Source: Siderastrea siderea
Lineage: Eukaryota > Cnidaria > Anthozoa > Scleractinia > Rhizangiidae
Direction: 5' to 3'
DNA: 64,000 nucleotides
Assembly: GCA_964030785.1 (NCBI GenBank)
Contig: OZ034975.1
Coordinates: 40,001,569-40,065,568, forward strand
The notes beneath the pieces are model-generated. The model searched no databases. It saw only the letters and a list, made by a program, of their open reading frames with translations, and was not told the DNA's origin. Each line of letters opens with the position of its first letter. Within the stretch, counting starts at the first letter, position 1. Positions 20,575 through 44,539 of the stretch are shown here, piece by piece. The position numbers and the translations under genes were made by a program.

Positions 20575-21044
20575 TCGTTTCCCAAAATTTCAGTTCCTGA
20601 TTTTAAAAACCCTAAAATAGTTCTGACTACCGCGCAAATCTCTCCATAACTACGTTTCCAAGTAGGTTTATGTAGGGCACTGCTAAAACTTACGTTTTAC
20701 CGGCTTTTGCCAAAAATATACCTCAAATGGGAAGGTTTATGTTCCAAAGCGTTCCTTATAAGAGGAACAGCTACAAAAAAGGCACACTTGTTCCTAAAAC
20801 AGTGTTAAAAGATGATGGCCTTAAATTTATATCAGCAAAACAAGGGTTTTCCCAGAGCTATCTTATTCCATGATACAAAAGTGAGTCCCTTTGTCCCCGG
20901 CATATCCGTGATCTCCGTTGAATGTATACAATTGTGCAAATCAGAACAAACTAAATAGGAAATAGATCACAGACACAAATGGCGAAACACTCACGCTCAA
21001 TGAAAAGAGTAAAAAGGAATATCAACTTAAACAAGCTCCAACTA

Positions 21045-21201
21045 CTATTCCCCGCTATCTCCGTTTTATCCGTCATACTAAAGAAATAATGAAACTTTTA
21101 GTCAGATCTCAGTAGTCAAAATATCTCAAGTAAATCGGGGATAACGGATACAACGGGGACAGAACTTACATTATTATTATTACACTTATTATTATTATTA
21201 T

Positions 21202-21242
<41 letters not shown>

Positions 21243-21474
21243 TTCTTAATATATTCCTATATATATACTGTAAGCTGTGTCCCCGCCGTCTCCGTTGTCT
21301 CCGTTGTACTTTATATTATTTTATATTCCTTGAAGCTGATCTGATGTACTGTAAGTTCTGTCCCCGTTGTATCCGTTATCCCCGATTTACTTGAGATCTT
21401 TTGACTACTGAGATCTGAGTGAAAATGCAATTATTTCTTTAGTGAAACGGATAAAACGGAAACAACGGGGAACA
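21045..21474. repeat. Element palindrome, unit 1 (one arm reduced)
   Basis: The outer parts (TATTCCCCGCTATCTCCGTT and AACGGAAACAACGGGGAACA) are still inverted. Most of the left inner arm, present in units 2-4, is missing and replaced by TTA repeats. Confidence 0.7.
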
Positions 21475-21509
21475 GCACTGAGAGATATTTTGATTACTGT
21501 GAACCCACT

Positions 21510-21625
21510 GTAAATACGCATTCATTCATTCATTCATTCATTCATCCATTGATTCATTCATTCATTCAATCATTCATTCATTCATTCACTCATTCATTGA
21601 TTCATTTATTCATTCATTCAAGTTA
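21510..21625 (+). repeat. (CATT)n microsatellite, unit 1
   Basis: Tandem ATTC units with a few interruptions follow the palindrome. Equivalent tracts lie near 26,920-27,025, 32,338-32,440 and 37,760-37,845 in the other units. Confidence 0.85.
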
Positions 21626-22088
21626 ACGTGCGTTATCTAAATAGTGTGACGGATACGCCGAGAAAAGCTATTAATTACAACTGTGCTGCACAAAAGAATA
21701 ATCCTTTCAATTAGCTCGCTAGTATTTTAAAAATATCGTTAAGCTTTTTGTTGATTCTGGAAATGCTTGTTCGCTAAAAAAAGTGTTAAGGTGACATGTT
21801 TTTAAGGCATTGATCATATGCCGGTATGAATGTTTAGTTTGCGCTTCATTGTTTTCCAGATTCTTTATTACACTGTTTGCCAAGGAGAAGCAGTTATGTA
21901 ACCACTGTAAATTGCTCGGGCATTTTGTTTTTGACTTGATTGTATCGAAAACAAAAAAAAATCACAGACAGGAAGTTTAAAAATGTAGCTCGTCGGGGCA
22001 CTTTTTACCACTAACCGCATATTTTTGCCCGTAAATTATCGAAAAGAAAAGATCAAACTGAGGAACGTAAACAATGAAGCTAGTATGC

Positions 22089-22096
22089 TATAAAAG
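22089..22096 (+). promoter_or_regulatory. TATA box of truncated Rep gene, unit 1
   Basis: TATAAAAG lies 36 nt upstream of the ATG at 22,132, so the leader would be very short. It is conserved at 27,508, 32,924 and 38,322 in the other units, including those whose Rep gene is truncated. Confidence 0.6.
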
Positions 22097-22131
22097 AAGT
22101 CTGAAACGTTGCTTCGTTCTCATTTCACTCG

Positions 22132-22656
22132 ATGACAGTGATGGCCACAGCACCAGCAAGGCAACTCAATAATAAGGTATGTACTAGATTTCATATTCCT
22201 TCTTCGTAGCTTTAAGACAAGTTAAGGAAGAAAAGTTGCTCTCGGTTCTTTTAGTGAACGAATTTACAAAGTTCAGCTTAAAACGTAGCAATTAACAGGA
22301 ACGAAATGCTATATTGCTTAGGCTTTTCTAACCAGTTAATCTAATAGGCATTGTAGTCTAAATATTTCCTACAGATTATTCGTCAATTTTAGTGATTCTG
22401 TGCTGACTAGTTTACTGTTTCCTTGTAATTATTTTAGGGAATCAGGAGTGCTGTGCTTAGCAAGGTCTTGCCAGCTGTCCAGGGAACTTGTTCTCTTTTG
22501 GCAGCTAAATTATCTTACAGCAAACATGAGGGAATGTCTTGTGACGATCTGTGGCTAAACATATGCCAGAAACGTGATGAATGTGACGAAAAGATAAAGA
22601 AAATGAAAGGAGTAGCATTTTTCTTCTCCGCTGTCGCCCATGTATGGCGAGAGTGA
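22132..22656 (+). pseudogene. Truncated Rep-like gene, unit 1 (two exons, 87 codons)
   Basis: Exon 1 (22,132-22,176) has 15 codons from ATG to AATAATAAG and ends at a GTATGT donor. The intron ends in ATTTTAG, and exon 2 (22,438-22,656) continues in phase 0. The protein matches the unit 4 Rep for about the first 80 residues, up to the FFFS stretch. It then runs for a few unrelated codons (HVWRE) to a stop, because the rest of the gene is deleted. Promoter, splice sites and frame are all preserved. It is therefore either a recent deletion derivative or a small expressed N-terminal fragment that might interfere with full-length Rep; expression is unknown. Confidence 0.65.
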
Positions 22657-22971
22657 TTGGTCAGACAAATGTCATCAATTGAATCCGTTTTCTGTGAAAT
22701 GAAACATTGAACTCAGTGTTTTTGCCTTTCGTAAAATTGAAATCGTATTTTTCAAGTCGAGAGTGATGCTAATAAATAATAAATAAGCGAACTACATGTA
22801 AGGAAAGGAAAGGAAAACGTCAACCTTGATTAAAAGAAAGTCACTTTTTGAATACAACTTTGCTTACTTTACTTCGACTATCTCTTACACGATAAAGGGT
22901 GCGTCGGCTCGGTCCCATATTTTATTAGACGAGTTTTGGCAGATTAGTTTGTTTCTAAACATTATGTCAAG

Positions 22972-24663
22972 CTATAGCTGCATTTTCATTCCAGCCCTTT
23001 TCTTGAGAGAGTCCGCCGTTCTTCCGTCTTGAAGTTTGAGATCGGGATCCCTCAGAATTGCCGTCCACTGCCCAAACCCGTGCCGATCGATTCCCTTCTT
23101 GAGAAAATCGTCCTCGTCTGCCGTGAATTTCAACACCCGACGATAATTTCTTTGAACTCGCAATTGGTTTGTGGGCGGGGAATCCTTTTCTTTAGGGGGC
23201 GCGCTCTTTGTTTCTGCTGTTTTGACTGGAGCTGCAAGACTTGAAGTTGAGCCGTTAAACCTCGTTTGCACTTCCCTATCCACCTCCGAGCCTTTCGTGC
23301 CTTGTAGCTTTTGTAGACACTCGTGAGCTTTGACAGCAACTTCGCGCGATCTTTGCTTTTGATAGTGAACTTTTGCAACGGCAGAACTGTGTTTTTGGTC
23401 TTCTGACAAAATTTGTTGCTCCTTGCTTGTGAGCAGATTGAGGCTTTGCGTCTCGACAATTTGACGATAGCGCGTCGGATGAATGAACTTTCCGATTGCA
23501 TCAAACACCAGTTTACTCATGACGTCGCCCAATTTGCTGTGCTGTCCTCCATTTCTCGTGATCAGAACGAACTCGCACTGGGGTTTTAGCAATGGCCTTA
23601 CGAAATTTATGTAGCTATCGAGCACCTGCATGCTTGCATCGGTCAGAATTAAGGAGTCAAATCCATATTTCCTAGCAGTCTTGAACTTTTTCTGGTCGAT
23701 GAATCCCCCGTTCTCCTTAGCTGCTCTGACCATGTCCACTGTCAAATACTGATAAGTCATAGGCCAAGATCCCTTCACCTTGATGAACAAATACACTGCG
23801 ACAAATTTCGTGGCAAATGTTAAGTCCGAAGGATTAACTTGACCTGGAATAGTTTTGCACGTCTTCACAGTGTTCTCGTAACGAGGCAAATGAAATGTCA
23901 CCACTTCTAACAGTTCTTCCATGGTTGCCCAGTGCCCCCTAGCATCCAAAGTTTCAATGTCTAGATCTTGTGTCCACTGCAGTCTCATCATCTTTGCCAC
24001 CGTCTTGCGCGCTCGTTTAAGGTACAACTCCGTTGAGGACAAATTTCGAAGAACTGTGTCTGATGCGCCGTTTATTTTTCTGAAGTCGATTAATTCGGAG
24101 ATCGCGTCAATGTAGCCCAATCGGCCACCGTGTCCGAGTTTGCATTCATCTTGCAAGCAGTCGATAAACTTGAACAACAGACTATGAGAACACAGGCTAA
24201 AGTCCAGCACTTCAAAACTCAATTCCTCTTCATCTTCGCAGCAAAATTTGAGAAATTTAAAGCATCTCTTGGCCATCTGCTGAGCTGCACGATCTTTCTT
24301 GCAACCCCCACCACTTCCAGTCAACCATTTCGTGAATAACCCGCCAATTTGGCTGGAAACTGAAAACGAAGGCATTACCCTGGCAGTTTGTTTTGTGATT
24401 TCGCCCGATGTATCATCATCGGCACGTTCTTTGGTACTTGAAACGTCGGGTTTTTCGTCAAAGAAAAAGAACCAACTGTGCTTGGTGTTCACATGTTTCC
24501 TGCAGCCACGTTGACTTTTAAATCCATCGTGATCACACCTTTGTATTGGACAGTGATACAAGCTATCTGTTTCTTCTTTTTCCAAGTGAAGCCGTTTTGG
24601 TTTTGGTGATGAGCCATCGATTTTCGACCAGTCAACCTTACCCTTTTTGTTCATGTCGGACAT
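22972..24663 (-). CDS. Tyrosine recombinase with C2H2 finger and Myb/SANT domain, unit 1
   Basis: The likely product is a 563-residue protein from the ATG at 24,663; the frame extends nine codons upstream but without an ATG. A C2H2-type finger uses C38, C43, H57 and H62. The catalytic domain of tyrosine recombinases is recognised from H395-P-T-R398 (the HxxR box), then H425 and Y434 nine residues apart, as in XerD-like enzymes; a probable beta-hairpin lysine is in the FKT motif (K328). The first arginine of the R-K-HxxR-H-Y set is expected at position 300 (GSxPMTYQYL) but is Trp here; unit 4 has Arg. Residues 509-563 form a Myb/SANT-like domain (KFTADED...GFGQW...GRTADSLKKR), recalling telobox proteins. 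The family cuts and rejoins DNA at paired core sites, here presumably the terminal arms. The W300 change suggests loss or reduction of activity. An AATAAA signal (complement of 22,921-22,926) lies just after the stop. Confidence 0.8.
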   Translation of the reverse strand: MSDMNKKGKVDWSKIDGSSPKPKRLHLEKEETDSLYHCPIQRCDHDGFKSQRGCRKHVNTKHSWFFFFDEKPDVSSTKERADDDTSGEITKQTARVMPSFSVSSQIGGLFTKWLTGSGGGCKKDRAAQQMAKRCFKFLKFCCEDEEELSFEVLDFSLCSHSLLFKFIDCLQDECKLGHGGRLGYIDAISELIDFRKINGASDTVLRNLSSTELYLKRARKTVAKMMRLQWTQDLDIETLDARGHWATMEELLEVVTFHLPRYENTVKTCKTIPGQVNPSDLTFATKFVAVYLFIKVKGSWPMTYQYLTVDMVRAAKENGGFIDQKKFKTARKYGFDSLILTDASMQVLDSYINFVRPLLKPQCEFVLITRNGGQHSKLGDVMSKLVFDAIGKFIHPTRYRQIVETQSLNLLTSKEQQILSEDQKHSSAVAKVHYQKQRSREVAVKAHECLQKLQGTKGSEVDREVQTRFNGSTSSLAAPVKTAETKSAPPKEKDSPPTNQLRVQRNYRRVLKFTADEDDFLKKGIDRHGFGQWTAILRDPDLKLQDGRTADSLKKRAGMKMQL

Positions 24664-25055
24664 CTGAGTGATCCACACAATTTGTTCCACTTACATAAAT
24701 AGTGAACAAAACACAAAGGCGACAAAAAACAATGGCTGTATTGTGCAAGTTTAAACTTGCCCCAACCTGCCCCAACTTGCCCCTGCTTGCTCAGGCATGT
24801 GTCTGCTTGCCACTGTTCATTATTCTTAAGTAAGCTTACAAATTCGAGGTGATATATGGCGTTGGTGCGATTATATTCAACCTTGCCCGGGCAAGTCTAT
24901 AAGGGCCTCGAAAAGTCTTTAAAAATCTGCTATTGACACTGCTTCGTGTTGTTTGAAACTTAAAACACTACACCAAATGTTTTTGCCAATTAAAAAGCGA
25001 TAAAATCATAGATGGCAAGAAAAGAAGAATGTTTCTGTTGAACAAGATGTACAAA

Positions 25056-25609
25056 GGAACTGTCATTTCTAAATAGGAACCATTTTACATAAATAGGAAC
25101 TAATGGTTAGGAACAAACTGTTCCACGTGCCAATAAAAAGGAACATTTCGTTCAAAACGGAACCTGTTAATGGGAACAATTGTTCCTCAAGTGAATAAAA
25201 AGGATCCAATTTTTCAAAACAGGAACAATGTTAGAAAGGAACAAACGTTCCTTTACAAAAAAAGGAACGTAATTAATTGGGAACCAAAGTTCCTCGTGTC
25301 AGCATAAAGGAACAGCCACTCTAAAACGGAACGCATTAATGGGAACAATTGTTCCTCAAGCGATTAAAAAGGACCAAAATGATAAAAGAGGAACAATACC
25401 ATTGGGAACACCTGTTCCTAGGCCACTCATTTAGGAACAAAAAGTTCCTTTCAATGTTAAAAATTCGGAACAAAATGTTCTTTTTAGCTCTAAATGAACA
25501 CTTTGTTCCTATTTTTAACAGCAATTTGTTCCTTTTGATGCTAAAAGGACCACTCCAAAGAGGAACAATCATCTCTTAATCGGAACGTTCCCAAAGCAAA
25601 AATGGGAAC
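25056..25609. promoter_or_regulatory. GGAAC/GTTCC iteron-like cluster, unit 1
   Basis: I count 31 GGAAC or GTTCC pentamers in about 554 bp, against roughly one expected by chance. Many form inverted pairs such as GGGAACAATTGTTCC and AGGAACAAAAAGTTCCT; spacing is irregular. The cluster sits between the recombinase 5' end and the right terminus. Four more copies lie near the left end (20,738-20,800). It is a candidate binding array for the element's Rep or recombinase/Myb protein, by analogy with iterons and subterminal sites. Confidence 0.7.
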
Positions 25610-25758
25610 AGTGCTAAAAAATAAAAGTAAGTTAAAAAGCCACGTAAAGGATGCATAAAATATGCCAAAGCATCTTATGACTCTCTATACTGAACAGATA
25701 CAACAGCCAAAATTTGATTGATAAAATCATGCTAGAACATGTTCAAATTTGAAAGTAA

Positions 25759-25796
25759 AAATTTTGGGAAACGTATAAGATCGTTTCCCAAAATTT
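25759..25796. other. Tyrosine-recombinase core-site candidate, junction 1/2
   Basis: Two 15-bp inverted arms (AAATTTTGGGAAACG and CGTTTCCCAAAATTT) flank the 8-bp spacer TATAAGAT. Arm-spacer-arm with an 8-bp spacer is the layout of lox- and FRT-type core sites. It is what a circularised element, or two units joined by site-specific recombination, would leave. Confidence 0.7.
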
Positions 25797-26251
25797 CAGT
25801 CCCTGATTTTAAAAACCCTAAAATAGTTCTGACTGCCGCGCAAATCTCTCCATAACTACGTTTCCATGTAGGTTTATGTAGGGCACTGCTAAAACTTACG
25901 TTTTACCTGCTTTTGTCAAAAATATACCTCAAATGGGAAGGTTTATGTTCCAAAGCGTTCCTTATAAGAGGAACAGCTACAAAAAAGGCACACTTGTTCC
26001 TGAAACAGTGTTAAAAGATGATGGCCTTAAAGTTATATCAGCAAAACAAGGGTTTTCCCAGAGCTATCTTATTCCATGATACAAAAGTGAGTCCCTTTGT
26101 CCCCGGCATAGCCGTGATCTCCGTTGAATGTATACAATCGTGCAAATCAGAACAAACTAAATAGGAAATAGATCACAGACACAAATGGCGAAACACTCAC
26201 GCTCAATGAAAAGAGCAAAAAGGAATATCAACTTAAACAAGCTCCAACTAC

Positions 26252-26501
26252 TATTCCCCGCTATCTCCGTTTTATCCGTCATACTAAAGAAATAATTAAA
26301 CTTTTAGTCAGATCTCAGTAGTCAAAATATCTCAAGTAAAACGGGGATAACGGATACAACGGGGACAGAACTTACAGTTCATCAGATCAGCTTCAAGGAA
26401 TATAAAATAATATAAAGTACAACGGAGACAACGGAGACGGCGGGGACACAACTTACAGTATATGTATAGGAATATATTAACAATACTACTACTACTACTA
26501 C

Positions 26502-26538
<37 letters not shown>

Positions 26539-26880
26539 TATTATTATTATTATTATATATTAACAATACTACTACTACTACTAATAATAATAATAATAAT
26601 AATAATTATTATTATTATTATTATTATTATTAGTAGTAGTAGTAGTATTCTTAATATATTCCTATATATAGACTGTAAGTTGTGTCCCCACCGTCTCCGT
26701 TGTCTCCGTTGTACTTTATATTATTTTATATTCCTTGAAGCTGATCTGATGTACTGTAAGTTCTGTCCCCGTTGTATCCGTTATCCCCGATTTACTTGAG
26801 ATCTTTTGACTACTGAGATCTGAGTGAAAATGCAATTATTTCTTTAGTGAAACGGATAAAACGGAAACAACGGGGAACAG
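26252..26880. repeat. Element palindrome, unit 2
   Basis: Imperfect inverted arms of roughly 250-300 bp meet in a TAC/TAA/TTA/GTA microsatellite core. Paired landmarks include GGGGATAACGGATACAACGG with CCGTTGTATCCGTTATCCCC, and AGATCAGCTTCAAGGAATAT with ATATTCCTTGAAGCTGATCT. The arms contain repeated TCCGTTGT-type words. It lies between the left terminus and the Rep promoter. It could be an origin-like structure or an old nested palindromic element. Confidence 0.75.
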
Positions 26881-27550
26881 CACTGAGAGATATTTTGATT
26901 ACTGTGAACCCACTGTAAATACGCATTCATTCATTCATTCATTCATTCATCCATTGATTCATTCATTCATTCAATCATTCATTCATTCATTCACTCATTC
27001 ATTGATTCATTTATTCATTCATTCAAGTTAACGTGCGTTATCTAAATTGCATATTTCTCGTAGTGTGACGGAGACGTCGAGAAAAGCTATTAATTACAAC
27101 TGTGCTGCACAAAAGAATAATCCTTTCAATTAGCTCGCTAGTATTTTAAAAATATCGTTAAGCTTTTTGTTGATTCTGGAAATGCTTGTTCGCTAAAAAA
27201 AGTGTTAAGGTGACATGTTTTTAAGGCATTGATCATATGCCGGTATGAATGTTTAGTTTGCGCTTCATTGTTTTCCAGATTCTTTATTACACTGTTTGCC
27301 AAGGAGAACCAGTTATGTAACCACTGTAAATTGCTCGGGCATTTTGTTTTTGACTTGATTGTATCGAAAACAAAAAAAAATCACAGACAGGAAGTTTAAA
27401 AATGTAGCTCGTCGGGGCACTTTTTACCACTAACCGCATATTTTTGCCCGTAATTTATCGAAAAGAAAAGATCAAACTGAGGAACGTAAACAATGAAGCT
27501 AGTATGCTATAAAAGAAGTCTGAAACGTTGCTTCGTTCTCATTTCACTCG

Positions 27551-28075
27551 ATGACAGTGATGGCCACAGCACCAGCAAGGCAACTCAATAATAAGGTATG
27601 TACTAGATTTCATATTCCTTCTTCGTAGCTTTAAGACAAGTTAAGGAAGAAAAGTTGCTCTCGGTTCTTTTAGTGAACGAATTTACAAAGTTCAGCTTAA
27701 AACGTAGCAATTAACAGGAACGAAATGCTATATTGCTTAGGCTTTTCTAACCAGTTAATCTAATAGGCATTGTAGTCTAAATATTTCCTACAGATTATTC
27801 GTCAATTTTAGTGATTCTGTGCTGACTAGTTTACTGTTTCCTTGTAATTATTTTAGGGAATCAGGAGTGCTGTGCTTAGCAAGGTCTTGCCAGCTGTCCA
27901 GGGAACTTGTTCTCTTTTGGCAGCTAAATTATCTTACAGCAAACATGAGGGAATGTCTTGTGACGATCTGTGGCTAAACATATGCCAGAAACGTGATGAA
28001 TGTGACGAAAAGATAAAGAAAATGAAAGGAGTAGCATTTTTCTTCTCCGCTGTCGCCCATGTATGGCGAGAGTGA
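27551..28075 (+). pseudogene. Truncated Rep-like gene, unit 2
   Basis: Exons 27,551-27,595 and 27,857-28,075 have the same splice sites and the same protein as the unit 1 copy. The identical break after the FFFS stretch shows that the deletion predates the tandem amplification. Confidence 0.65.
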
Positions 28076-28390
28076 TTGGTCAGACAAATGTCATCAATTG
28101 AATCCGTTTTCTGTGAAATGAAACATTGAACTCAGTGTTTTTGCCTTTCGTAAAATTGAAATCGTATTTTTCAAGTCGAGAGTGATGCTAATAAATAATA
28201 AATAAGCGAACTACATGTAAGGAAAGGAAAGGAAAACGTCAACCTTGATTAAAAGAAAGTCACTTTTTGAATACAACTTTGCTTACTTTACTTCGACTAT
28301 CTCTTACACGATAAAGGGTGCGTCGGCTCGGTCCCATATTTTATTAGACGAGTTTTGGCAGATTAGTTTGTTTCTAAACATTATGTCAAG

Positions 28391-30082
28391 CTATAGCTGC
28401 ATTTTCATTCCAGCCCTTTTCTTGAGAGAGTCCGCCGTTCTTCCGTCTTGAAGTTTGAGATCGGGATCCCTCAGAATTGCCGTCCACTGCCCAAACCCGT
28501 GCCGATCGATTCCCTTCTTGAGAAAATCGTCCTCGTCTGCCGTGAATTTCAACACCCGACGATAATTTCTTTGAACTCGCAATTGGTTTGTGGGCGGGGA
28601 ATCCTTTTCTTTAGGGGGCGCGCTCTTTGTTTCTGCTGTTTTGACTGGAGCTGCAAGACTTGAAGTTGAGCCGTTAAACCTCGTTTGCACTTCCCTATCC
28701 ACCTCCGAGCCTTTCGTGCCTTGTAGCTTTTGTAGACACTCGTGAGCTTTGACAGCAACTTCGCGCGATCTTTGCTTTTGATAGTGAACTTTTGCAACGG
28801 CAGAACTGTGTTTTTGGTCTTCTGACAAAATTTGTTGCTCCTTGCTTGTGAGCAGATTGAGGCTTTGCGTCTCGACAATTTGACGATAGCGCGTCGGATG
28901 AATGAACTTTCCGATTGCATCAAACACCAGTTTACTCATGACGTCGCCCAATTTGCTGTGCTGTCCTCCATTTCTCGTGATCAGAACGAACTCGCACTGG
29001 GGTTTTAGCAATGGCCTTACGAAATTTATGTAGCTATCGAGCACCTGCATGCTTGCATCGGTCAGAATTAAGGAGTCAAATCCATATTTCCTAGCAGTCT
29101 TGAACTTTTTCTGGTCGATGAATCCCCCGTTCTCCTTAGCTGCTCTGACCATGTCCACTGTCAAATACTGATAAGTCATAGGCCAAGATCCCTTCACCTT
29201 GATGAACAAATACACTGCGACAAATTTCGTGGCAAATGTTAAGTCCGAAGGATTAACTTGACCTGGAATAGTTTTGCACGTCTTCACAGTGTTCTCGTAA
29301 CGAGGCAAATGAAATGTCACCACTTCTAACAGTTCTTCCATGGTTGCCCAGTGCCCCCTAGCATCCAAAGTTTCAATGTCTAGATCTTGTGTCCACTGCA
29401 GTCTCATCATCTTTGCCACCGTCTTGCGCGCTCGTTTAAGGTACAACTCCGTTGAGGACAAATTTCGAAGAACTGTGTCTGATGCGCCGTTTATTTTTCT
29501 GAAGTCGATTAATTCGGAGATCGCGTCAATGTAGCCCAATCGGCCACCGTGTCCGAGTTTGCATTCATCTTGCAAGCAGTCGATAAACTTGAACAACAGA
29601 CTATGAGAACACAGGCTAAAGTCCAGCACTTCAAAACTCAATTCCTCTTCATCTTCGCAGCAAAATTTGAGAAATTTAAAGCATCTCTTGGCCATCTGCT
29701 GAGCTGCACGATCTTTCTTGCAACCCCCACCACTTCCAGTCAACCATTTCGTGAATAACCCGCCAATTTGGCTGGAAACTGAAAACGAAGGCATTACCCT
29801 GGCAGTTTGTTTTGTGATTTCGCCCGATGTATCATCATCGGCACGTTCTTTGGTACTTGAAACGTCGGGTTTTTCGTCAAAGAAAAAGAACCAACTGTGC
29901 TTGGTGTTCACATGTTTCCTGCAGCCACGTTGACTTTTAAATCCATCGTGATCACACCTTTGTATTGGACAGTGATACAAGCTATCTGTTTCTTCTTTTT
30001 CCAAGTGAAGCCGTTTTGGTTTTGGTGATGAGCCATCGATTTTCGACCAGTCAACCTTACCCTTTTTGTTCATGTCGGACAT
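28391..30082 (-). CDS. Tyrosine recombinase with C2H2 finger and Myb/SANT domain, unit 2
   Basis: Same 563-residue product as in unit 1, with no amino-acid difference, including Trp at position 300 in place of the expected catalytic Arg. Confidence 0.8.
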   Translation of the reverse strand: MSDMNKKGKVDWSKIDGSSPKPKRLHLEKEETDSLYHCPIQRCDHDGFKSQRGCRKHVNTKHSWFFFFDEKPDVSSTKERADDDTSGEITKQTARVMPSFSVSSQIGGLFTKWLTGSGGGCKKDRAAQQMAKRCFKFLKFCCEDEEELSFEVLDFSLCSHSLLFKFIDCLQDECKLGHGGRLGYIDAISELIDFRKINGASDTVLRNLSSTELYLKRARKTVAKMMRLQWTQDLDIETLDARGHWATMEELLEVVTFHLPRYENTVKTCKTIPGQVNPSDLTFATKFVAVYLFIKVKGSWPMTYQYLTVDMVRAAKENGGFIDQKKFKTARKYGFDSLILTDASMQVLDSYINFVRPLLKPQCEFVLITRNGGQHSKLGDVMSKLVFDAIGKFIHPTRYRQIVETQSLNLLTSKEQQILSEDQKHSSAVAKVHYQKQRSREVAVKAHECLQKLQGTKGSEVDREVQTRFNGSTSSLAAPVKTAETKSAPPKEKDSPPTNQLRVQRNYRRVLKFTADEDDFLKKGIDRHGFGQWTAILRDPDLKLQDGRTADSLKKRAGMKMQL

Positions 30083-31028: not shown

Positions 31029-31177
31029 AGTGCTAAAAAATAAAAGTAAGTTAAAAAGCCACGTAAAGGATGCATAAAATATGCCAAAGCATCTTATGAC
31101 TCTCTATACTGAACAGATACAACAGCCAAAATTTGATTGATAAAATCATGCTAGAACATGTTCAAATTTGAAAGTAA

Positions 31178-31215
31178 AAATTTTGGGAAACGTATAAGAT
31201 CGTTTCCCAAAAGTT
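31178..31215. other. Core-site candidate, junction 2/3
   Basis: Same layout and the same TATAAGAT spacer (31,193-31,200). The right arm carries one substitution (AAAAGTT). Confidence 0.65.
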
Positions 31216-35498: not shown

Positions 35499-35890
35499 CT
35501 GAGTGATCCACACAATTTGTTCCACTTACATAAATAGTGAACAAAACACAAAGGCGACAAAAAACAATGGCTGTATTGTGCAAGTTTAAACTTGCCCCAA
35601 CCTGCCCCAACTTGCCCCTGCTTGCTCAGGCATGTGTCTGCTTGCCACTGTTCATTATTCTTAAGTAAGCTTACAAATTCGAGGTGATATATGGCGTTGG
35701 TGCGATTATATTCAACCTTGCCCGGGCAAGTCTATAAGGGCCTCGAAAAGTCTTTAAAAATCTGCTATTGACACTGCTTCGTGTTGTTTGAAACTTAAAA
35801 CACTACACCAAATGTTTTTGCCAATTAAAAAGCGATAAAATCATAGATGGCAAGAAAAGAAGAATGTTTCTGTTGAACAAGATGTACAAA

Positions 35891-36444
35891 GGAACTGTCA
35901 TTTCTAAATAGGAACCATTTTACATAAATAGGAACTAATGGTTAGGAACAAACTGTTCCACGTGCCAATAAAAAGGAACATTTCGTTCAAAACGGAACCT
36001 GTTAATGGGAACAATTGTTCCTCAAGTGAATAAAAAGGATCCAATTTTTCAAAACAGGAACAATGTTAGAAAGGAACAAACGTTCCTTTACAAAAAAAGG
36101 AACGTAATTAATTGGGAACCAAAGTTCCTCGTGTCAGCATAAAGGAACAGCCACTCTAAAACGGAACGCATTAATGGGAACAATTGTTCCTCAAGCGATT
36201 AAAAAGGACCAAAATGATAAAAGAGGAACAATACCATTGGGAACACCTGTTCCTAGGCCACTCATTTAGGAACAAAAAGTTCCTTTCAATGTTAAAAATT
36301 CGGAACAAAATGTTCTTTTTAGCTCTAAATGAACACTTTGTTCCTATTTTTAACAGCAATTTGTTCCTTTTGATGCTAAAAGGACCACTCCAAAGAGGAA
36401 CAATCATCTCTTAATCGGAACGTTCCCAAAGCAAAAATGGGAAC
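35891..36444. promoter_or_regulatory. GGAAC/GTTCC iteron-like cluster, unit 3
   Basis: Same arrangement as in unit 1. Confidence 0.7.
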
Positions 36445-36593
36445 AGTGCTAAAAAATAAAAGTAAGTTAAAAAGCCACGTAAAGGATGCATAAAATATGC
36501 CAAAGCATCTTATGACTCTCTATACTGAACAGATACAACAGCCAAAATTTGATTGATAAAATCATGCTAGAACATGTTCAAATTTGAAAGTAA

Positions 36594-36631
36594 AAATTTT
36601 GGGAAACGTATAAGATCGTTTCCCAAAAGTT
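36594..36631. other. Core-site candidate, junction 3/4
   Basis: Same layout, spacer TATAAGAT at 36,609-36,616, with the same single arm substitution as junction 2/3. Confidence 0.65.
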
Positions 36632-37085
36632 CAGTCCCTGATTTTAAAAACCCTAAAATAGTTCTGACTGCCGCGCAAATCTCTCCATAACTACGTTTCC
36701 ATGTAGGTTTATGTAGGGCACTGCTAAAACTTACGTTTTACCTGCTTTTGTCAAAAATATACCTCAAATGGGAAGGTTTATGTTCCAAAGCGTTCCTTAT
36801 AAGAGGAACAGCTACAAAAAAGGCACACTTGTTCCTGAAACAGTGTTAAAAGATGATGGCCTTAAAGTTATATCAGCAAAACAAGGGTTTTCCCAGAGCT
36901 ATCTTATTCCATGATACAAAAGTGAGTCCCTTTGTCCCCGGCATAGCCGTGATCTCCGTTGAATGTATACAATCGTGCAAATCAGAACAAACTAAATAGG
37001 AAATAGATCACAGACACAAATGGCGAAACACTCACGCTCAATGAAAAGAGCAAAAAGGAATATCAACTTAAACAAGCTCCAACTA

Positions 37086-37362
37086 CTATTCCCCGCTATC
37101 TCCGTTTTATCCGTCATACTAAAGAAATAATTAAACTTTTAGTCAGATCTCAGTAGTCAAAATATCTCAAGTAAAACGGGGATAACGGATACAACGGGGA
37201 CAGAACTTACAGTTCATCAGATCAGCTTCAAGGAATATAAAATAATATAAAGTACAACGGAGACAACGGAGACGGCGGGGACACAACTTACAGTATATGT
37301 ATAGGAATATATTAACAATACTACTACTACTACTACTACTACTAATAATAATAATAATAATA

Positions 37363-37395
<33 letters not shown>

Positions 37396-37416
37396 TAACA
37401 ATACTACTACTACTAC

Positions 37417-37448
<32 letters not shown>

Positions 37449-37717
37449 ATTATTATTATTATTATTAGTAGTAGTAGTAGTAGTATTCTTAATATATTCC
37501 TATATATATACTGTAAGTTGTGTCCCCACCGTCTCCGTTGTCTCCGTTGTACTTTATATTATTTTATATTCCTTGAAGCTGATCTGATGTACTGTAAGTT
37601 CTGTCCCCGTTGTATCCGTTATCCCCGATTTACTTGAGATCTTTTGACTACTGAGATCTGAGTGAAAATGCAATTATTTCTTTAGTGAAACGGATAAAAC
37701 GGAAACAACGGGGAACA
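37086..37717. repeat. Element palindrome, unit 4
   Basis: Same inverted arms as in units 2 and 3; only the microsatellite core differs in repeat number and order. Confidence 0.75.
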
Positions 37718-38321
37718 GCACTGAGAGATATTTTGATTACTGTGAACCCACTGTAAATACGCATTCATTCATTCATTTATTCATTAATTCATTCATTCAT
37801 TCATTCATTCACTCATTCATTGATTCATTTATTCATTCATTCAAGTTAACGCGCGTTATCTAAATTGCATATTTCTCGTAGTGTGACGGAGACGTCGAGA
37901 AAAGCTATTAATTACAACTGTGCTGCACAAAAGAATAATCCTTTCAATTAGCTCGCTAGTATTTTAAAAATATCGTTAAGCTTTTTGTTGATTCTGGAAA
38001 TGCTTGTTCGCTAAAAAAAGTGTTAAGGTGACATGTTTTTAAGGCATTGATCATATGCCGGTATGAATGTTTAGTTTGCGCTTCATTGTTTTCCAGATTC
38101 TTTATTACACTGTTTGCCAAGGAGAACCAGTTATGTAACCACTGTAAATTGCACGGGCATTTAGTTTTTGACTTGATTGTATCGAAAACAAAAAAAATCA
38201 CACACAGGAAATTTAAAAATGCTCGTCGGGGCATTTTTTACCACTAACCGCCTATTTTTGCCCGTAATTTATCGAAAAGAAAAGATCAAACTGAGGAACT
38301 TAAACAATGAAGCTAGCATGC

Positions 38322-38329
38322 TATAAAAG
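38322..38329 (+). promoter_or_regulatory. TATA box of the Rep-like gene, unit 4
   Basis: TATAAAAG lies 36 nt before the ATG at 38,365, consistent with a start site near TCTCATTTCA (about 38,351). Confidence 0.6.
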
Positions 38330-38364
38330 AACTCTGAAACGTTGCTTCGTTCTCATTTCACTCG

Positions 38365-40491
38365 ATGACAGTGATGGCCACAGCACCAGCAAGGCAACTC
38401 AATAATAAGGTATGTACTAGATTTCATATTCCTTCTTCGTAGCTTTAAAACAAGTTAAGGAAGAAAAGTTGCTCTCAGTTCTTTTAGTGAACGAATTTAC
38501 AAAGTTCAGCTTAAAACGTAGCAATTAACAGGATTGAAATGCTATATTGCTTAGGCTTTTCTAACCAGTTAATCTAATAGGCATTGTAGTCTAAATATTT
38601 CCTACAGATTATTCGTCAATTGTAGTGATTCTGTGCTGACTAGTTTACTGTTTCCTTGTAATTATCTTAGGGAATCAGGAGTGCTGTGCTTAGCAAGGTC
38701 TTGCCAGCTGTCCAGGGAACTTGTTCTCTTTTGGCAGCTAAATTATCTTACAGCAAACATGAGGGAATGTCTTGTGACGATCTGTGGCTAAACATATGCC
38801 AGAAACGTGATGAATGTGACGAAAAGATAAAGAAAATGAAAGGAGTAGCATTTTTCTTCTCCTCTGTCGCCGCCCTAGAGAAGCGAAGTAAAGAAAAGGG
38901 AGAGAAGGCAAACAGCCAAGAACAAGAGGACGACCAGAACGATGAATTACCAGAAAAGTACAGGCCAGCAATAACTTACTGGATTGCAGTCCAATCCTCC
39001 AACGGAATGTGCGTTTCAACGGTACCCTTGCACTCGGCCCTATTACAAACAGGCATGGAAATTACAGCTAAAACCCTGCCAGTCTGCAAACGAGGAGGTG
39101 AAGAGGAATCTTGTGCACCATTATGTACTACGCTAAAAGATCACAATAACCTCTTTATTCAGACCAAAGTGGACAAGTCGTTTTCCTACAGTCTCCAATT
39201 GCTACAAGACCAATTGATAGAGGAGCCACTGGAGTCACGTGCACTTCCCGCAAGTGAACGTGTTGTAAGGTTACAAGTTGTTGGTACCTCGTTTACTGCA
39301 AATCTGCGAGACAAGTTAATACCCTCTCTTGTCCGTTCCGGCCTCCAATTTGATGCGTTTGGCATCGAAGCATGCGATTTGCCTTCAGAGGTCCCAAAAG
39401 TCACAAAGGCTCTGACATCGCCGATTGTTGTAGCGATTAATGACATCGAACGAGCAATGGGGAAATTGGGTTACGCTCTGTACAGTGGAGAAGTTTTCAA
39501 AAAGGCGAAGTCTTCTAAATACACATATCACCACTGCTGTTCGGTGAAGAAATTTCTTTCTCTGCTGGCAAGCAACGACCAGTTTAAAGACACCATCATC
39601 AAGAATCTGAACAAGCTCGTAGAAATCCTTGGAGATAAAGATTGCGAGTTCGTGAAGCAGCTGTGTATCAACTACGACTTGATCGAAGTCAATGGGGGTT
39701 GGGGCTTCTCAATAAGCCAGAGAAAGTTCGTTTTCCATCCCATCAAAGAAACAGACATCGGCAAAGAATCTCCCAGGGCCTACATCGACTACCAACACAC
39801 TAAGACGCCGGATCCTGGATACTTCAAAGAAATACTACAGAATAGCCTCAACCAGCTAGAAATGGCACACTTTTGCGAATATTACATTCGACTCCTCAAC
39901 TGCCGCATTAAACAGCACAAAGAAAGGGTCATGTGCCTCATAGGTGAGCCTAATAGTGGAAAGACGAGCCTTTTCACCCCCATCTCTCGCTTGATCCCAG
40001 CAAGATACATGGCCGTGATCAGCAAGCAAAAGGATTTCAACAAGAGCCTGGTCGATGAAAACACTCAAATAATTTTTCTGGACGAGGCGCACACCAAGCT
40101 GATGGATCCAGACGACTGGAAGATATTGACACAAGGAGGGCTCACGGCACACGACCGCAAATATAAGACTTCAAGCCTGGCAGTCATAAGGTGTCCAATG
40201 TTTATCACCTGTCAGACGGACATGGATTTCGGTGGGGAGCACAACACTGCCATGGACGCCCGCTTAAGAAAGTTCTTCTTTAGAAGTCTGACCTCGCCGT
40301 GTGTAGCGGGAGTGCAAGAATTCTTGCGAGCTAATGCAATGGACTGCATTATTTGGGCATGTGGCCTTGCACGTACTCCGGAAGATGAGCTATCCCCTCC
40401 CATGCCAGGGACCAGTTTACAGCCAGAAGAGATCGATGAAGAAGAAAAGAACAGAATTAGAACCATTCAACTAGATGAAAGCGAAAGCTAG
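38365..40491 (+). CDS. Rep-like SF3 helicase, unit 4 (two exons)
   Basis: Exon 1 (38,365-38,409, 15 codons) joins exon 2 (38,671-40,491) in phase 0 across a GTATGT...ATCTTAG intron, giving 621 residues. Numbered on the spliced protein, the Walker A loop GEPNSGKT is at 440-447, the Walker B strand IIFLDEA has D486 and E487, motif C (FITCQTD) is near 526-532, and an arginine-finger candidate (DARLRKFFF) has R546 and R548. This order is that of SF3 helicases, which unwind DNA at origins in parvoviral NS1, papillomaviral E1 and many Rep proteins. Motif C has Gln where Asn is usual. No HUH nicking motif is recognisable in the N-terminal 400 residues, so an endonuclease role is not supported. After the TAG stop the frame stays open for 41 further acidic codons, suggesting a recent nonsense change in the tail. 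The gene lies head-on to the recombinase. It probably drives replication of an excised form; that is inference. Confidence 0.8.
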
Positions 40492-40617
40492 CACGAAGGC
40501 AGTGAGCAAGAGGAATCGAACACGGACACAGAAGTCAGCGCGGAGGAGGGAGAGATCGAAGACACTAATTCTACCTGTTTGGAGAAGAGTCTAGAGAAAA
40601 TTGCAAGTCTGCGATAA

Positions 40618-41361
40618 CAACAGCCATGTCACAGTCTCAAGCGGAGGCAACTTGTTCTACTCGCCACTGAAGTAAAACGCACCGTGGATGAAAGGGACAG
40701 CCGGGAAGAGTGTGCACGATTACGTGTCCTTGAAGAAACTAAGGAACGCTGGATCTCACTGGGGATGATAAGGGAAGAAGACGCCCACTTGCTACAGTCG
40801 GTGAACGGACCTTATCATCCCAACATAGAACGTTCCAGAGAAGAATACTTTACGAAGAAGAGGCAAGAAGACCAACGGATTCTCGAAAAGAAGGCGCGCG
40901 AATACTTTAACGATGAGTGGGTCATGGAGAAGGAAAAGGAACTCCGAGAACTTCAGAAAAAAGAGGACGCAGCGAAAGACGAGCAAGTGAAGCGTGCGCT
41001 CCATTACATGATGGAAGTGACTGTCGAAGCCCTCAAGTTGAAATTTCAGAAGGAAGAAGTTTCCGGTCTCGCGAAACTGGTACAGTTGGAGCGGAGAAGA
41101 AAGGCTGTGGAAATGAAGTGGGTATCCCCTTCTCAAGCCCAACGCATTAACAGTATCTGGTGCCCCCTACCCTATCCTTGTGAAGAGATGGAAGACGAGG
41201 AGGAGGAGAATCTCTTCATAACACCCTCGAGGGCGCCCAAAGCGCACAGTCGCTCATCCTCTCAGAAACAGAAGTCTCAGAAACGACGAGGGGGGCAAAC
41301 AAGTACCTCAGTGCCCAAGAGAGGAAGAATAACTCACTTTTTTACTCCGAGTCAAGAGTAA
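40618..41361 (+). CDS. Coiled-coil protein with basic tail, unit 4 (start uncertain)
   Basis: The frame is open from 40,618; about 225 residues from 40,684 look coding. The middle is Glu/Lys/Arg-rich and strongly helical, likely a coiled coil. An acidic patch (EEMEDEEEEN) precedes a Ser/Lys/Arg-rich tail. The extreme C-terminus, GRITHFFTPSQE, resembles the I-x-x-F-F core of PCNA-binding (PIP) boxes but lacks the leading Gln. The start is unclear: an ATG at 40,626 lies in another frame and would need a one-base shift, while the first in-frame ATG is about 28 codons into the clear coding part. It lies 126 nt after the Rep stop, on the same strand, with an AATAAA at 41,633-41,638. Family not recognised; an accessory replication factor would fit the context. 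Confidence 0.6.
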   Translation, partial: QQPCHSLKRRQLVLLATEVKRTVDERDSREECARLRVLEETKERWISLGMIREEDAHLLQSVNGPYHPNIERSREEYFTKKRQEDQRILEKKAREYFNDEWVMEKEKELRELQKKEDAAKDEQVKRALHYMMEVTVEALKLKFQKEEVSGLAKLVQLERRRKAVEMKWVSPSQAQRINSIWCPLPYPCEEMEDEEEENLFITPSRAPKAHSRSSSQKQKSQKRRGGQTSTSVPKRGRITHFFTPSQE

Positions 41362-41489
41362 AAATCAAATTTTCATGTTGTCAGGAAACATTGAAAAAAG
41401 TTAGCACTTGTGTTACAAATTGATGTTTAACGAGTTAACCTACATTACTTATTGGTTTTCCTAAAATTCATTTTTCCATGTGTAACAAA

Positions 41490-41592
41490 CTGTTGAGAAA
41501 AGTGAACATTGAACATTGAAGAGTCAAGATTGAAGTGTGAACATTGAACATTGAACATAGAACATTAAACAGTGAACAGCGAACATTGATTG
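41490..41592 (+). repeat. TGAACATTGAA short repeat, unit 4
   Basis: About eight degenerate copies of (T)GAACATTGAA lie between the convergent gene ends, just before the AATAAA at 41,633. Absent from units 1-3, which lack this part. Confidence 0.75.
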
Positions 41593-41632
41593 CGTCTCTA
41601 AACTCTGTGCCATGATGTTGCATTTTGTCCAT

Positions 41633-41638
41633 AATAAA
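41633..41638 (+). terminator. Polyadenylation signal for plus-strand genes, unit 4
   Basis: AATAAA 272 nt after the coiled-coil ORF stop. It is the first canonical signal downstream of the Rep and coiled-coil genes and lies before the convergent recombinase gene. Confidence 0.5.
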
Positions 41639-41730
41639 GATTTCCTCTTGAGTTATTTTGTCCGGGGGGTTAACTCACCATCTTGAGATTCGAGCAAATA
41701 GCATGTACACTAAATCAATTCCTTTTTTTT

Positions 41731-43430
41731 TTACATGAATTTAAGTTCGGCCCTTTTCTTTAAAGAGTCAGCCATTCGTCCCTCTTGAAATTTGACTTCG
41801 GAATCTCTCAAGATGGCACTCCACTGTCCAAATCCGTGTTTAGCTATCCCTTCTTTTAGAAATTTGTCCTTATCAGCAGTAAATTTTAAGATCCGACGAT
41901 GGCTCCGTTGAATGCGCAAGGGCGTAGCTGAGGAGACAACCTCTTTTGGGAGGCATGATTGTTCTTTCTGCAGTTTCAACTAAAGGCGACGAGCTTGAAG
42001 TTGAACAGCCAAACCTCGTGTGGACTTCCTTGTCCACTTCCGATCCCTTGGTACCTTGTACTTTTTGTAGACACTCGTGGGCAATTGCAGCAACTTCGCA
42101 CGACCTCTGCTTTTGATAGTGAACTTTGGCGACGGCTGAACTGTGTTTCTGATCTTCCGAAAAAATCCTTTGCTCTTTACTAGTGAGCTGATTGAGGCTA
42201 TGCGTTTCGACTATTTGACGATAGCGCGTCGGGTGAATGTACTTTCCGATTGCGTCAAAGACTAGTTTACTCATGACGTCGCCCAATTTGCTGTGTTGGC
42301 CTCCATTTTTCGTGAGCAGAACGAACTCGCACTGGGGTTTTAGCAATGGCCTTACGAAATTGATGTAGCTATCGAGCACCTGCATGCTTGTATCGGTCAG
42401 AATTAAGGAGTCAAATCCATATTTGCTAGCAGTCTTGAACTTTTTCTGGTCAATAAACCCTCCATTCTCCTTCGCTGTTCTGACCATGTCGACTGTCAAG
42501 TACTGATAAGTCATAGGGCGAGACCCCTTTACCTTGATGAACAAATACACCGCGACAAATTTCGTGGCAAATGTCAAGACCGAAGGACTAACTTGACCTG
42601 GAATAGTTTTGCACGTCTTCACAGTGTTCTCGTAACGAGGCAAATGAAATGTCACCACTTCTAACAGTTCTTCCATGGTTGCCCAGTGCCCCCTAGCATC
42701 CAAAGTTTCAATGTCTAGATCTTGTGTCCACTGCAGTCTCATCATCTTTGCCACCGTCTTGCGCGCTCGTTTAAGGTACAGCTCCGTTGAGCACAAATTT
42801 CGAAGAACTGTGTCTGATGCTCCGTTTATTTTTCTGAAGTCGATTAATCCGGAGATCGCATCAACGTAGCCCAATCGGCCACCGTGTCCGAGTTTGCATT
42901 CATCTTGCAAGTAGTCGATAAACTTGAACAACAGACTATGAGAACACAGGCTAAAGTCCAGCACTTCAAAACTCAATTCCTCTTCATCTTTGCAGCACAA
43001 TTTGAAAGAAGAAAAGAAGAAATTTAAAGCATTTCTTGGCTATCTGCTGAGCTGCACGATCTTTCTTGCAACCCCCACCACTTCCAGTCAACCATTTCGT
43101 GAATAAGTCGCCAATCTGGCTGGAAACTGAAAACGAAGGCATTACCCTGGCAGTTTGATTTGTGATTTCACCCGATGTATCACCATCGGCAAGTTCTTTG
43201 GTACTTGAAACGTCGGGTTTTTCGTCAAAGAAAAAGAACCAACTGTGCTTGGTGTTCACATGTTTCCTGCAGCCACGTTGACTTTTAAATCCATCGTGAT
43301 CACACGTTTGTATTGGACAGTGATACAAGCTATCTGTTTCTTCTTTTTCCAAGTGAAGCCGTTTTGGTTTTGGCGATGAGCCATCAATTTTCGACCAGTC
43401 AACCTTACCCTTTTTGTTCATGTCGGACAT
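41731..43430 (-). pseudogene. Frameshifted tyrosine recombinase, unit 4
   Basis: The gene is collinear with the intact copies but broken twice. A net 13-bp insertion near 43,003-43,015 (CTTC-rich) shifts the frame after the FKFL stretch, and another shift lies near 41,945-41,975 before the Myb/SANT domain. The three pieces run 43,430-42,984, 43,000-41,873 and 41,979-41,731. The catalytic core is otherwise complete and has Arg at the first catalytic position (GSRPMTYQYL), where units 1-3 have Trp. The N-terminal and catalytic parts are nearly identical to units 1-3, whereas the C-terminal linker and Myb/SANT part differ at many positions. Confidence 0.8.
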
Positions 43431-43806
43431 CTGAGTGATTCACACAATTTGTTCCACTTACATAAATAGTGAACAAAACACAAAGGCGACAAAGAAACAA
43501 TGGCTGCATTGTGCAAGTTAAAACTTGCCCCAACCTGCCCCAACTTGCCCCTGCTTGCTCAGGCATGTGTCTGCTTGCCACTGTTCATTATTCTTAAGTA
43601 AGTTTACAAATTTAAGGTGATATATGGCGTTGGTGCGATTATATTCAACCTTGCCCGGGCAAGTCTATAAGGGCCTCGAAAAGTCTTTAAAAATCTGCTA
43701 TTGACTCTGCTTCCTGTACTACACCAAATGTTTTTGCCAATTAAAAAGCGATAAAATCATAGATGGCAAGAAAAGAAGAATGTTTCTGTTGAACAAGATG
43801 TACAAA

Positions 43807-44342
43807 GGAACTGTCATTTCTAAATAGGAACCATTTTACATAAATAGGAACTAATGGTTAGGAACAAACTGTTCCACGTGACAATAAAAAGGAACATTTC
43901 GTTCAAAACGGAACCTGTTAATGGGAACAATTGTTCCTCAGGTGAATAAAAAGGAACCAATTTTTCAAAGCAGGAACAATGTTAGAAAGGAACAAACGTT
44001 CCTTTACAAAAAAAGGAACGTAATTAATTGGGAACCAAAGTTCCTCGTGTCAGCATAAAGGAACAGCCACTCTAAAAGGGAACGCATTAATGGGAACAAT
44101 TGTTCCTCAAGCGATTAAAAAGGACCAAAATGATAAAAGAGGAACAATACCATTGGGAACACCTGTTCTTAGGCCACTCATTTAGGAACAAAAAGTTCCT
44201 TTCAGTGTTAAAAATTGGGAACAAAATGTTCTTTTTAGCTCTAAATGAACACTTTGTTCCTATTTTTAACAGCAATTTGTTCCTTTTGATCTTAAAAGGA
44301 GCACTCCAAAGAGGAACAATCATCTCTTAATGGGAACGTTCC
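43807..44342. promoter_or_regulatory. GGAAC/GTTCC iteron-like cluster, unit 4
   Basis: Nearly all motif copies are kept despite scattered substitutions between them. One copy near 43,952 (GGAACC) is a GGATCC in units 1-3, and one copy near the right edge is lost (GGGAAG). Confidence 0.7.
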
Positions 44343-44539
44343 CAAAGCAAAAATGGGAAGAGTGCACAAAAATAAAAGTATGTTGAAAAGCCACTTAAAA
44401 GATAAATAAAACATGCCAAAGCAGCTTATGACTCCCTATACTGAACAGATACAACAGCCAAAATTGGATTGATAAAATCATGCTAGAACATGTTCAAATT
44501 TGGAAGTAAAAATTTTGGGAAACGTAGGAGATGGAAGAG

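Follow-up and report, generated by a model that had tools for sequence, protein, structure and literature searches.

A probable two-gene animal transposon with a tyrosine recombinase-like gene and an SF3 helicase gene, arrayed head-to-tail in a coral genome

The 64,000-nucleotide stretch of Siderastrea siderea DNA analysed here (the window) contains, at positions 20,576-44,524, four related units arranged head-to-tail. Each of the four is probably a copy of a small animal DNA transposon with two genes, in which a tyrosine recombinase (YR) would join the element ends and an SF3 helicase would drive replication of the resulting circle. The element most likely represents a new kind of YR transposon in animals, and its cycle would comprise excision as a circle, SF3-initiated copying, and reinsertion. 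The placement of both genes between the same arms, the common ancestry of the units, the SF3 domain, the YR-like residues, the layout of the junction core, and a cluster of short sites are all features read from the sequence.

Unit 1 (20576-25773, 5,198 bp), unit 2 (25782-31192, 5,411 bp), and unit 3 (31201-36608, 5,408 bp) carry an internal deletion in the helicase gene, and the left palindrome of unit 1 is shorter. The long unit 4 (36617-44524, 7,908 bp) carries the helicase gene. The mutual identity of units 1-3 was 99.3-99.9% over most of their length, whereas unit 4 differed from them by ~8% in the recombinase half and also in gene content. The arm TTTTGGGAAACG, searched with at most one mismatch allowed, was present at 8 sites in the window, each without a mismatch and each at the end of a unit, versus 0.61 sites expected by shuffling. 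The left outer arm of the array (20576-20587, minus strand) adjoins a GAA microsatellite and has the flank AAGAAGAT; the right outer arm (44513-44524, plus strand) has the flank TAGGAGAT. At the junction between units 1 and 2 (25762-25793), a 12-bp arm is followed by the 8-bp spacer TATAAGAT and a 12-bp inverted arm, and the same core was found between units 2 and 3 (31181-31212) and between units 3 and 4 (36597-36628), giving three occurrences in the window versus none expected. In PMC3212892, a YR core site is defined as two 11-13 bp inverted arms flanking a 6-8 bp segment, and all three unit junctions have this form (12-8-12). The inverted arms of the long unit had initially been described as 15 bp long; arms of that length are exact in units 1-2, whereas in units 3-4, one of which is the long unit, the exact arms measure 12 bp. 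AGAT recurs in the spacer of the junctions and in each outer flank of the array, at a single locus and in GA-rich DNA.

In unit 4, the helicase gene is located on the plus strand. Exon 1 (38365-38409, 15 codons) has GT directly after it, the intron predicted from the sequence (38410-38670) is of the GT...AG type, and exon 2 runs to the first nonsense codon (38671-40491), encoding an N-terminal region of uncertain fold and then the SF3 helicase (~residues 247-577 of the ORF). The splice put forward earlier is plausible, as GT follows exon 1, AG precedes position 38671, and the annotated Oculina protein P0137 begins likewise. The C-terminal part (40492-41361, plus strand) is charged and has the PIP-box-like tail RGRITHFF; two nonsense codons, at 40489 and 40615, detach it in this unit. 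The segment at 40618-41361 had been taken for a separate coiled-coil protein, a reading that is given up here: it shares the helicase frame, and what it matches in homologues 864-913 aa long (P0121-P0129) is their C-terminal part. From its motif, the tail would be of the PCNA-binding (PIP-like) type.

The helicase is a true member of SF3, of the E1/NS1/Rep type, with Walker A, Walker B, motif C, and the Arg finger in an SF3 fold. The motifs pointed out in the initial annotation proved real in alignment A1 (n=30), in which the Walker A Lys was conserved in 29/30, the Walker B Asp-Glu in 30/30, and the Arg finger in 29/30 sequences. PPV_E1_C was the sole Pfam family above its cut-off (27.1 vs 26.5 bits, E=2.8e-06), and NS1 was just under. 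When the PDB was searched by sequence, the best chain for the helicase ORF alone was B19 NS1 (E 0.012), and the A1 profile retrieved no SF3 chain (best E 0.36). In the structure comparison, the SaPI5 primase-helicase ranked first in both lists, with AAV Rep sharing that rank in the second. NCBIfam gave seven weak matches for the helicase, far under the cut-offs, and PHROGs gave four weak matches for the helicase and one for the C-terminal ORF. No polymerase domain was matched in the element ORFs by the Pfam scan. The helicase remnant of unit 1 (22132-22629, plus strand) comprises exon 1, the intron, and an initial 192-nt segment of exon 2 that is identical to unit 4; the deletion point lies within ~10 nt after this segment. 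Exon 1 and exon 2 read the same in units 2 and 3 as in this remnant, and one helicase-gene deletion is common to units 1-3.

Unbroken recombinase ORFs of 572 aa, encoding a C2H2 finger, the YR core, and a Myb domain, were found on the minus strand in units 1 (22972-24690), 2 (28391-30109), and 3 (33807-35525); the protein sequence is the same in all three, with Trp where the catalytic Arg I belongs. The convergent recombinase with C2H2 and Myb domains that had been ascribed to the long unit stands as to its domains, but the gene in unit 4 (41873-43439, minus strand) is frameshifted and broken into two ORFs (42984-43439 and 41873-43039), with the Myb-coding stretch in another frame. The C2H2 motif was upheld by alignment A4 (n=45; both Cys in 44/45, both His in 45/45), and the Myb/SANT assignment by a C-terminal Myb/CHD1-HTH domain.

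By its catalytic residues and their spacing, and with weak profile support, the recombinase seems to be a YR. The set Arg-Lys-(His)-Arg-His/Trp-Tyr is present with canonical spacing: in A4, R309 was found in 44/45, K337 in 45/45, H404 in 25/45, R407 in 45/45, H434 in 45/45, and Y443 in 45/45 sequences, and the distances were equal or close to those in lambda Int, XerD, and Cre, except for Arg II-His III (27 vs 22-23). Pfam YR families gave 0 matches for 27 recombinases at E up to 10, no YR family was among the 25 listed of the 32 Pfam families matched by the 45 recombinases of A4, neither DUF3504 nor GCR1_C was matched in Pfam, and the recombinase had no matches in NCBIfam or PHROGs. PDB profile searches yielded only Myb/Chd1-type relatives below E 0.01. 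No match was obtained with a profile of three bacterial YRs (Prob 0.2). With a profile of eight bacterial YRs (8 of 9; IntS was excluded, its core not being found by the motif pattern), hhalign gave a weak match of 37 columns between Lys and HxxR (P 0.0013, with shuffle controls; probability 18.8%), and HxxR and Tyr were out of register when the match was extended. The structure model of the recombinase was poor (pLDDT 41).

Judged from these sequences, all four units are derived from an ancestor carrying both genes, because the arms are the same in all of them and none lacks the start of the helicase gene. Probably none of the four is autonomous in its present form: units 1-3 are missing the helicase and have Trp at the catalytic Arg I of the recombinase, and unit 4 has a frameshifted recombinase gene and two nonsense codons in the helicase gene. 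Neither a circle, an empty site, nor a second insertion was seen from the window.

Homologues of both proteins are numerous, and those named were from corals, an anemone, and, for the recombinase, a hydrozoan, Clytia hemisphaerica, whose proteins fall within the recombinase family. The named SF3 matches were all from Hexacorallia, among the 120 of 206 matches listed, few of which carry names. The A1 helicases were 37-87% identical to the window protein, the N-terminus was similar across several helicase homologues, and related genes that look intact are present in databases. Linkage outside the window was taken from contigs of equal length listed for both proteins; two such lengths are chromosome-sized, and the third is 78,386 bases. 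The 78,386-base size was listed for a recombinase homologue (77% identical) and for a helicase homologue (84% identical), and it seems that a single 78-kb contig carries the two genes with open frames. The proposal that an SF3 helicase and a YR belong to one mobile element is supported by the 78,386-base listings, by the shared arms, and by the helicase start in all four units. When viral and prokaryote genome contigs were scanned with the helicase alignment A1 and a recombinase alignment, A2, using two peptide patterns per protein on the viral contigs, 187, 162, 127, and 41 pattern matches were obtained, none of which passed tblastn. When viral contigs were searched for the inner 8 bp of the arms around an arbitrary 8-base spacer, 9 stretches were returned, which were taken as chance because no relative of either protein was confirmed there.

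Among described systems, Cryptons are DNA transposons with a YR that occur in fungi, in oomycetes, and in animals, Nematostella among them (PMC3212892). The same text presents them, like the element, as capsid-less and with a proposed circular intermediate, describes short bases common to the ends, which the element may have as well, and gives them 4-6 bp direct repeats at the ends and a gene set of a YR plus, in some groups, a C48 peptidase gene; the word "helicase" occurs 0 times in the paper (PMC3212892). Cryptons are described there without terminal inverted repeats, whereas the element has exact 12-bp arms in 4/4 units (15 bp in two), and the SF3 gene (in unit 4, with remnants in units 1-3), the C2H2 finger, and the C-terminal Myb domain set the element apart from them. 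Extra genes occur in some Cryptons, and the gene set alone would not exclude Crypton membership. Polinton-like viruses (PLVs) and virophages, as described in PMC4642659 and PMC12220804, resemble the element in having both enzyme types, in integrating, and in a predicted circular donor, but they carry capsid and packaging genes, and PLVs measure 14-40 kb, against 7.9 kb and two genes seen here. As both enzymes are encoded by PLVs and virophages (PMC4642659), the uniqueness initially claimed for the YR and SF3 pairing was too broad. Neither a capsid gene nor a packaging ATPase was seen in unit 4 by the ORF list and Pfam on five ORFs, in which short spliced exons could be missed.

DIRS-type retrotransposons are also animal mobile elements with a tyrosine recombinase; their hallmarks, reverse transcriptase and RNase H, were absent among the unit ORFs (ORF list and Pfam scan). 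SaPI-type satellites, with an integrase and a primase-helicase in their gene set, are prokaryotic and are packaged by a helper phage; like the element, they pair an integrase with an SF3-type replication helicase (the SaPI5 protein was the top structural match), but no relationship was seen beyond the SF3 fold. Papillomavirus E1, parvovirus NS1, and AAV Rep are SF3 initiator helicases as well, with 13-19% sequence identity to the element helicase over structurally aligned residues, and to our knowledge they are genes of capsid-bearing viruses with no tyrosine recombinase. Among the papers listed in searches of an open-licence PMC library, none was recognised as reporting a capsid-less animal transposon with this gene set. 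In the literature searched, described animal YR transposons are apparently without a replication initiator, and the eukaryotic elements that otherwise pair a YR with SF3 are viral or resemble viruses. If an element without a capsid carries both, it would reveal how transposons turn into replicons, or viruses into transposons, and would tie the papillomavirus/parvovirus helicase class to chromosomal mobile DNA in early-branching animals; it also offers a candidate with which episomal replication in animal cells can be tested.

The helicase gene may be of ancient viral origin, and the whole element could be what is left of a PLV, a virophage, or a small DNA virus after loss of the capsid genes, with a YR integrase and an SF3 helicase retained. 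PLVs and virophages do contain both gene types (PMC4642659), stony corals are reported to contain endogenous PLVs (PMC12220804), and for sea anemones there is a report of cressviruses with an E1-like Rep and with what seem to be genomic copies (PMC11071296). For the element as a whole, a reduced virus is nevertheless unlikely: beyond the two genes, the 7.9-kb unit 4 has no ORF >124 aa, short spliced exons that could escape the ORF list aside, relatives of neither protein were confirmed among the viral contigs with two peptide patterns each, and the SF3 domain, which certain PLVs and virophages carry in fusion with a polymerase (PMC4642659 and PMC12220804), is accompanied by no polymerase match here. 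It is likewise improbable that a Crypton-like, YR-only transposon received the SF3 gene in a single insertion and carries it as a passenger without a role in mobility. The helicase-less units 1-3, so alike over most of their length, fit such a history, as does a recombinase family that reaches Clytia hemisphaerica beside named SF3 matches from Hexacorallia only among those listed, but the helicase is conserved across the wide divergence of A1 in its motifs (29-30/30), its N-terminus is alike in several homologues, it has a PIP-like tail, and the occurrence of both homologues on contigs of 78,386 bases makes the pairing seemingly not private to this array.

A somewhat likelier alternative, although still on the doubtful side, concerns only the growth of the array, which would have come about by unequal crossing-over or partial assembly duplication and would be uninformative on recombinase activity. 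Units 2 and 3 are 99.9% identical, and Trp in place of Arg I in units 1-3 makes their self-mobilisation doubtful. On the other hand, the diverged unit 4 is joined at exactly the same core, and crossing-over enlarges arrays but would not by itself have made the first exact end-to-end junction. Growth of this kind is compatible with a two-gene transposon as the nature of the element.

For the two-gene transposon, the recombinase, with its C2H2 finger, YR core, and Myb domain, would join both ends at the 12-8-12 core and release a circle, which could later insert at a fresh location or at the end of a copy already in place, the latter giving rise to head-to-tail arrays. The SF3 initiator, with its PCNA-binding-type tail, likely binds the element, perhaps at the GGAAC array beside the joined ends, and would melt the DNA and recruit the host replication machinery, so that the circle would be copied before reinsertion. 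The circular form, its replication, protein binding to the GGAAC sites, and reintegration, which make up the plasmid-like cycle suggested initially, we consider a sound inference. More tentatively, the element may be an animal chromosomal plasmid, a two-gene circle of corals that persists episomally, is copied by its own SF3 initiator and the host PCNA-dependent machinery, and reinserts site-specifically. It would then correspond, in animals and free of a capsid, to phage satellites, and could have given E1/NS1-type helicases to viruses or received them from viruses.

The iteron-like cluster noted earlier was borne out: the interval 43780-44380 contains 30 GGAAC/GTTCC sites, whereas 300 shuffles averaged 1.5 and never exceeded 6. 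The cluster (43806-44342) is situated between the recombinase 5' end and the right arm and includes six GGAAC-N4/5-GTTCC palindromes, for which a possible likeness to papillomavirus E1 sites was considered and left aside. A left-end group of four GGAAC/GTTCC sites (36782-36835) would sit across the joint from this cluster once the ends were joined in a circle. AACAAT was also enriched in the cluster (7 vs 1.0), but inside the GGAACAA motif.

Four units lie head to tail in the array (20,576–44,524), with lengths of 5,198, 5,411, 5,408, and 7,908 bp (units 1–4: 20576–25773, 25782–31192, 31201–36608, and 36617–44524). With up to one mismatch allowed, the 12-mer TTTTGGGAAACG was found eight times in the window (0.61 expected), always exact and always at a unit end. 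An identical 32-bp junction sequence, having a core-site layout of arm, spacer, and arm (12-8-12 bp, spacer TATAAGAT), was present at all three unit borders. The initial annotation had given the long unit inverted arms of 15 bp; the arms were recovered at 12 bp, and the inverted match reaches 15 bp solely in units 1 and 2. On the left, a GAA microsatellite adjoins the array, with AAGAAGAT ahead of the arm, and the right flank reads TAGGAGAT. The last four spacer bases of the junctions are common to both outer flanks; this is suggestive, although only one locus is involved and the DNA there is rich in GA.

Identity is 99.9% between units 2 and 3; unit 1 matches both at 99.3% over 4.6 kb and at 98% in its first 595 bp. 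For the left 2.3 kb of unit 4, identity is 97.5% with units 2/3 and 94.8–97.8% with unit 1, and its recombinase half matches all three at 91.7%. The helicase gene, encoding the SF3 domain, is full-length in unit 4 only. Units 1–3 have kept an identical exon 1, together with the GT donor and the AG acceptor. Exon 2 of unit 1 begins with 192 nt that do not differ from unit 4; after a single difference the two diverge from approximately base 202, and the exon 2 reading of units 2 and 3 agrees with unit 1 through this point. Since the start of the helicase gene is kept in units 1–3, all four units descend from an ancestor with both genes, and, judged by sequence, units 1–3 are internal-deletion derivatives of the two-gene element. 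Approximately 350 bp from the deletion point to the recombinase end of units 1–3 (22,640–22,993 in unit 1) had no match in unit 4, and the first 333 bp of this segment were confined to the three short units, apart from 16–19-nt matches. The left part of units 2–4 also carries an inverted repeat (26235–26896, 31654–32312, and 37070–37734) with ~90% complementary arms of 318–321 nt around an AT-rich centre; it may be a foldback element nested in the unit or a palindrome with a part in replication. The arms of its counterpart in unit 1 are just 145 nt.

The 572-aa recombinase ORFs of units 1–3 had 919 protein matches (details from 120 listed), and 97 relatives of about 600 aa or more were 34–78% identical, two named Clytia hemisphaerica proteins included. 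In a 45-sequence alignment, the putative catalytic residues K337, R407, H434, and Y443 were each conserved in 45/45 and R309 in 44/45; position 404 was His (25), Asn (14), Thr (4), or Ser (2). Spacings were compared with lambda Int, XerD, and Cre, respectively, using residue numbers that were checked in the three enzymes: Arg I to Arg II, 98 (99, 99, 119); Arg I to Lys, 28 (23, 24, 28); Arg II to His III, 27 (22, 23, 23); and His/Trp to Tyr, 9 (9, 9, 9). A C-terminal Myb/CHD1-type domain was matched in 27/27 members of one set and 39/45 of another. Against a profile of eight bacterial tyrosine recombinases (YRs), the catalytic region scored 29.8 (P 0.0013, hhalign probability 18.8%), a weak match of 37 columns between Lys and HxxR; controls reached at most 21.0 (60 column shuffles), 11.7 (reversed copy), and 15.6 (six other segments). 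HxxR and Tyr fell out of register when this alignment was stretched, a three-sequence bacterial profile did not match the recombinase, and no Pfam YR family matched any of the 27 recombinases scanned (E up to 10). The structure model was poor (pLDDT 41). The YR assignment draws on three things in combination: how the residues are conserved and spaced, the weak match to the bacterial profile, and the layout of the core site.

The Arg I position is Trp in the recombinases of units 1–3; it is Arg in 117 of the 120 close relatives listed, the other three having no match to the search pattern. Unit 4 has Arg at this position, but a frameshift splits the gene into two ORFs and places the Myb-coding stretch in another frame. 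No unit therefore looks autonomous. In an alignment of 500 codons, six of them counted twice, the recombinases of units 1 and 4 shared 453 residues, with dN 0.048 and dS 0.240, as would be expected from protein-level selection on both recombinase lineages until recently.

The proposed iteron-like cluster was borne out: 30 GGAAC/GTTCC sites, including six palindromic pairs, lie in 43780–44380 (300 shuffles: mean 1.5, maximum 6), and four more at the left end of unit 4. In a circular form, both groups would flank the joined ends as one contiguous control region. Candidate binders are the recombinase C2H2/Myb domains or the helicase N-terminal region. Just past the unit 4 helicase gene (41501–41589) are approximately twelve 7-bp TGAACAT-like repeats; motif counts detected no such cluster in units 1–3.

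Most simply, the element can be read as a transposon with two genes, in which a site-specific recombinase would excise and insert the element and an SF3 initiator would copy the excised form. The sequence itself shows the anatomy of the units, their common descent, the SF3 domain, the YR-like residues, and the layout of the core; the plasmid-like life cycle suggested initially, with a circle, its replication, and its reintegration, we infer from these. A rival source is a reduced virus. Polinton-like viruses and virophages have both enzyme types, according to PMC4642659 and PMC12220804, so the pairing as such is not new, and the novelty suggested initially was too broad. Cryptons are the closest capsid-free elements, and, compared with their published description, the element here differs in its inverted ends and gene set. 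Among the papers listed by searches of the open-licence literature, none was seen to describe a YR and SF3 gene set as an animal transposon.

The helicase might instead be a passenger in the element. Open relatives of both proteins exist, namely the recombinase P0075 (77% identity) and the helicase P0121 (896 aa, 84% identity), each on a 78,386-base contig that we take to be the same one. When 217 recombinase rows were compared with 120 helicase rows, two further lengths were found on both sides, each of chromosome size and uninformative about linkage. As a further rival, the array may have grown by crossing-over alone; for units 1–3 this may well be so, and it would leave the nature of the element unaffected. 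Among the matches listed, the named close homologues were foremost from Oculina patagonica and point to a stony coral as the probable host. A divergent SF3 relative (P0188, 532 aa, 41% identity) lies on a 7,143-base contig, which could represent a second subfamily of about the same size.

Elsewhere in the window, a tRNA gene was predicted on the minus strand at 9920–9995 by ARAGORN (undetermined type) and Rfam (47.2 bits). The regions 53406–54851 and 58676–59065 contain a 9-bp GTGTAGTC-type minisatellite, its strand sense inverted near 53569, and a separate GC-rich tandem repeat of 69 bp. A tandem array of ~1.9 kb with a 32-bp basic unit occupies 60936–62838.
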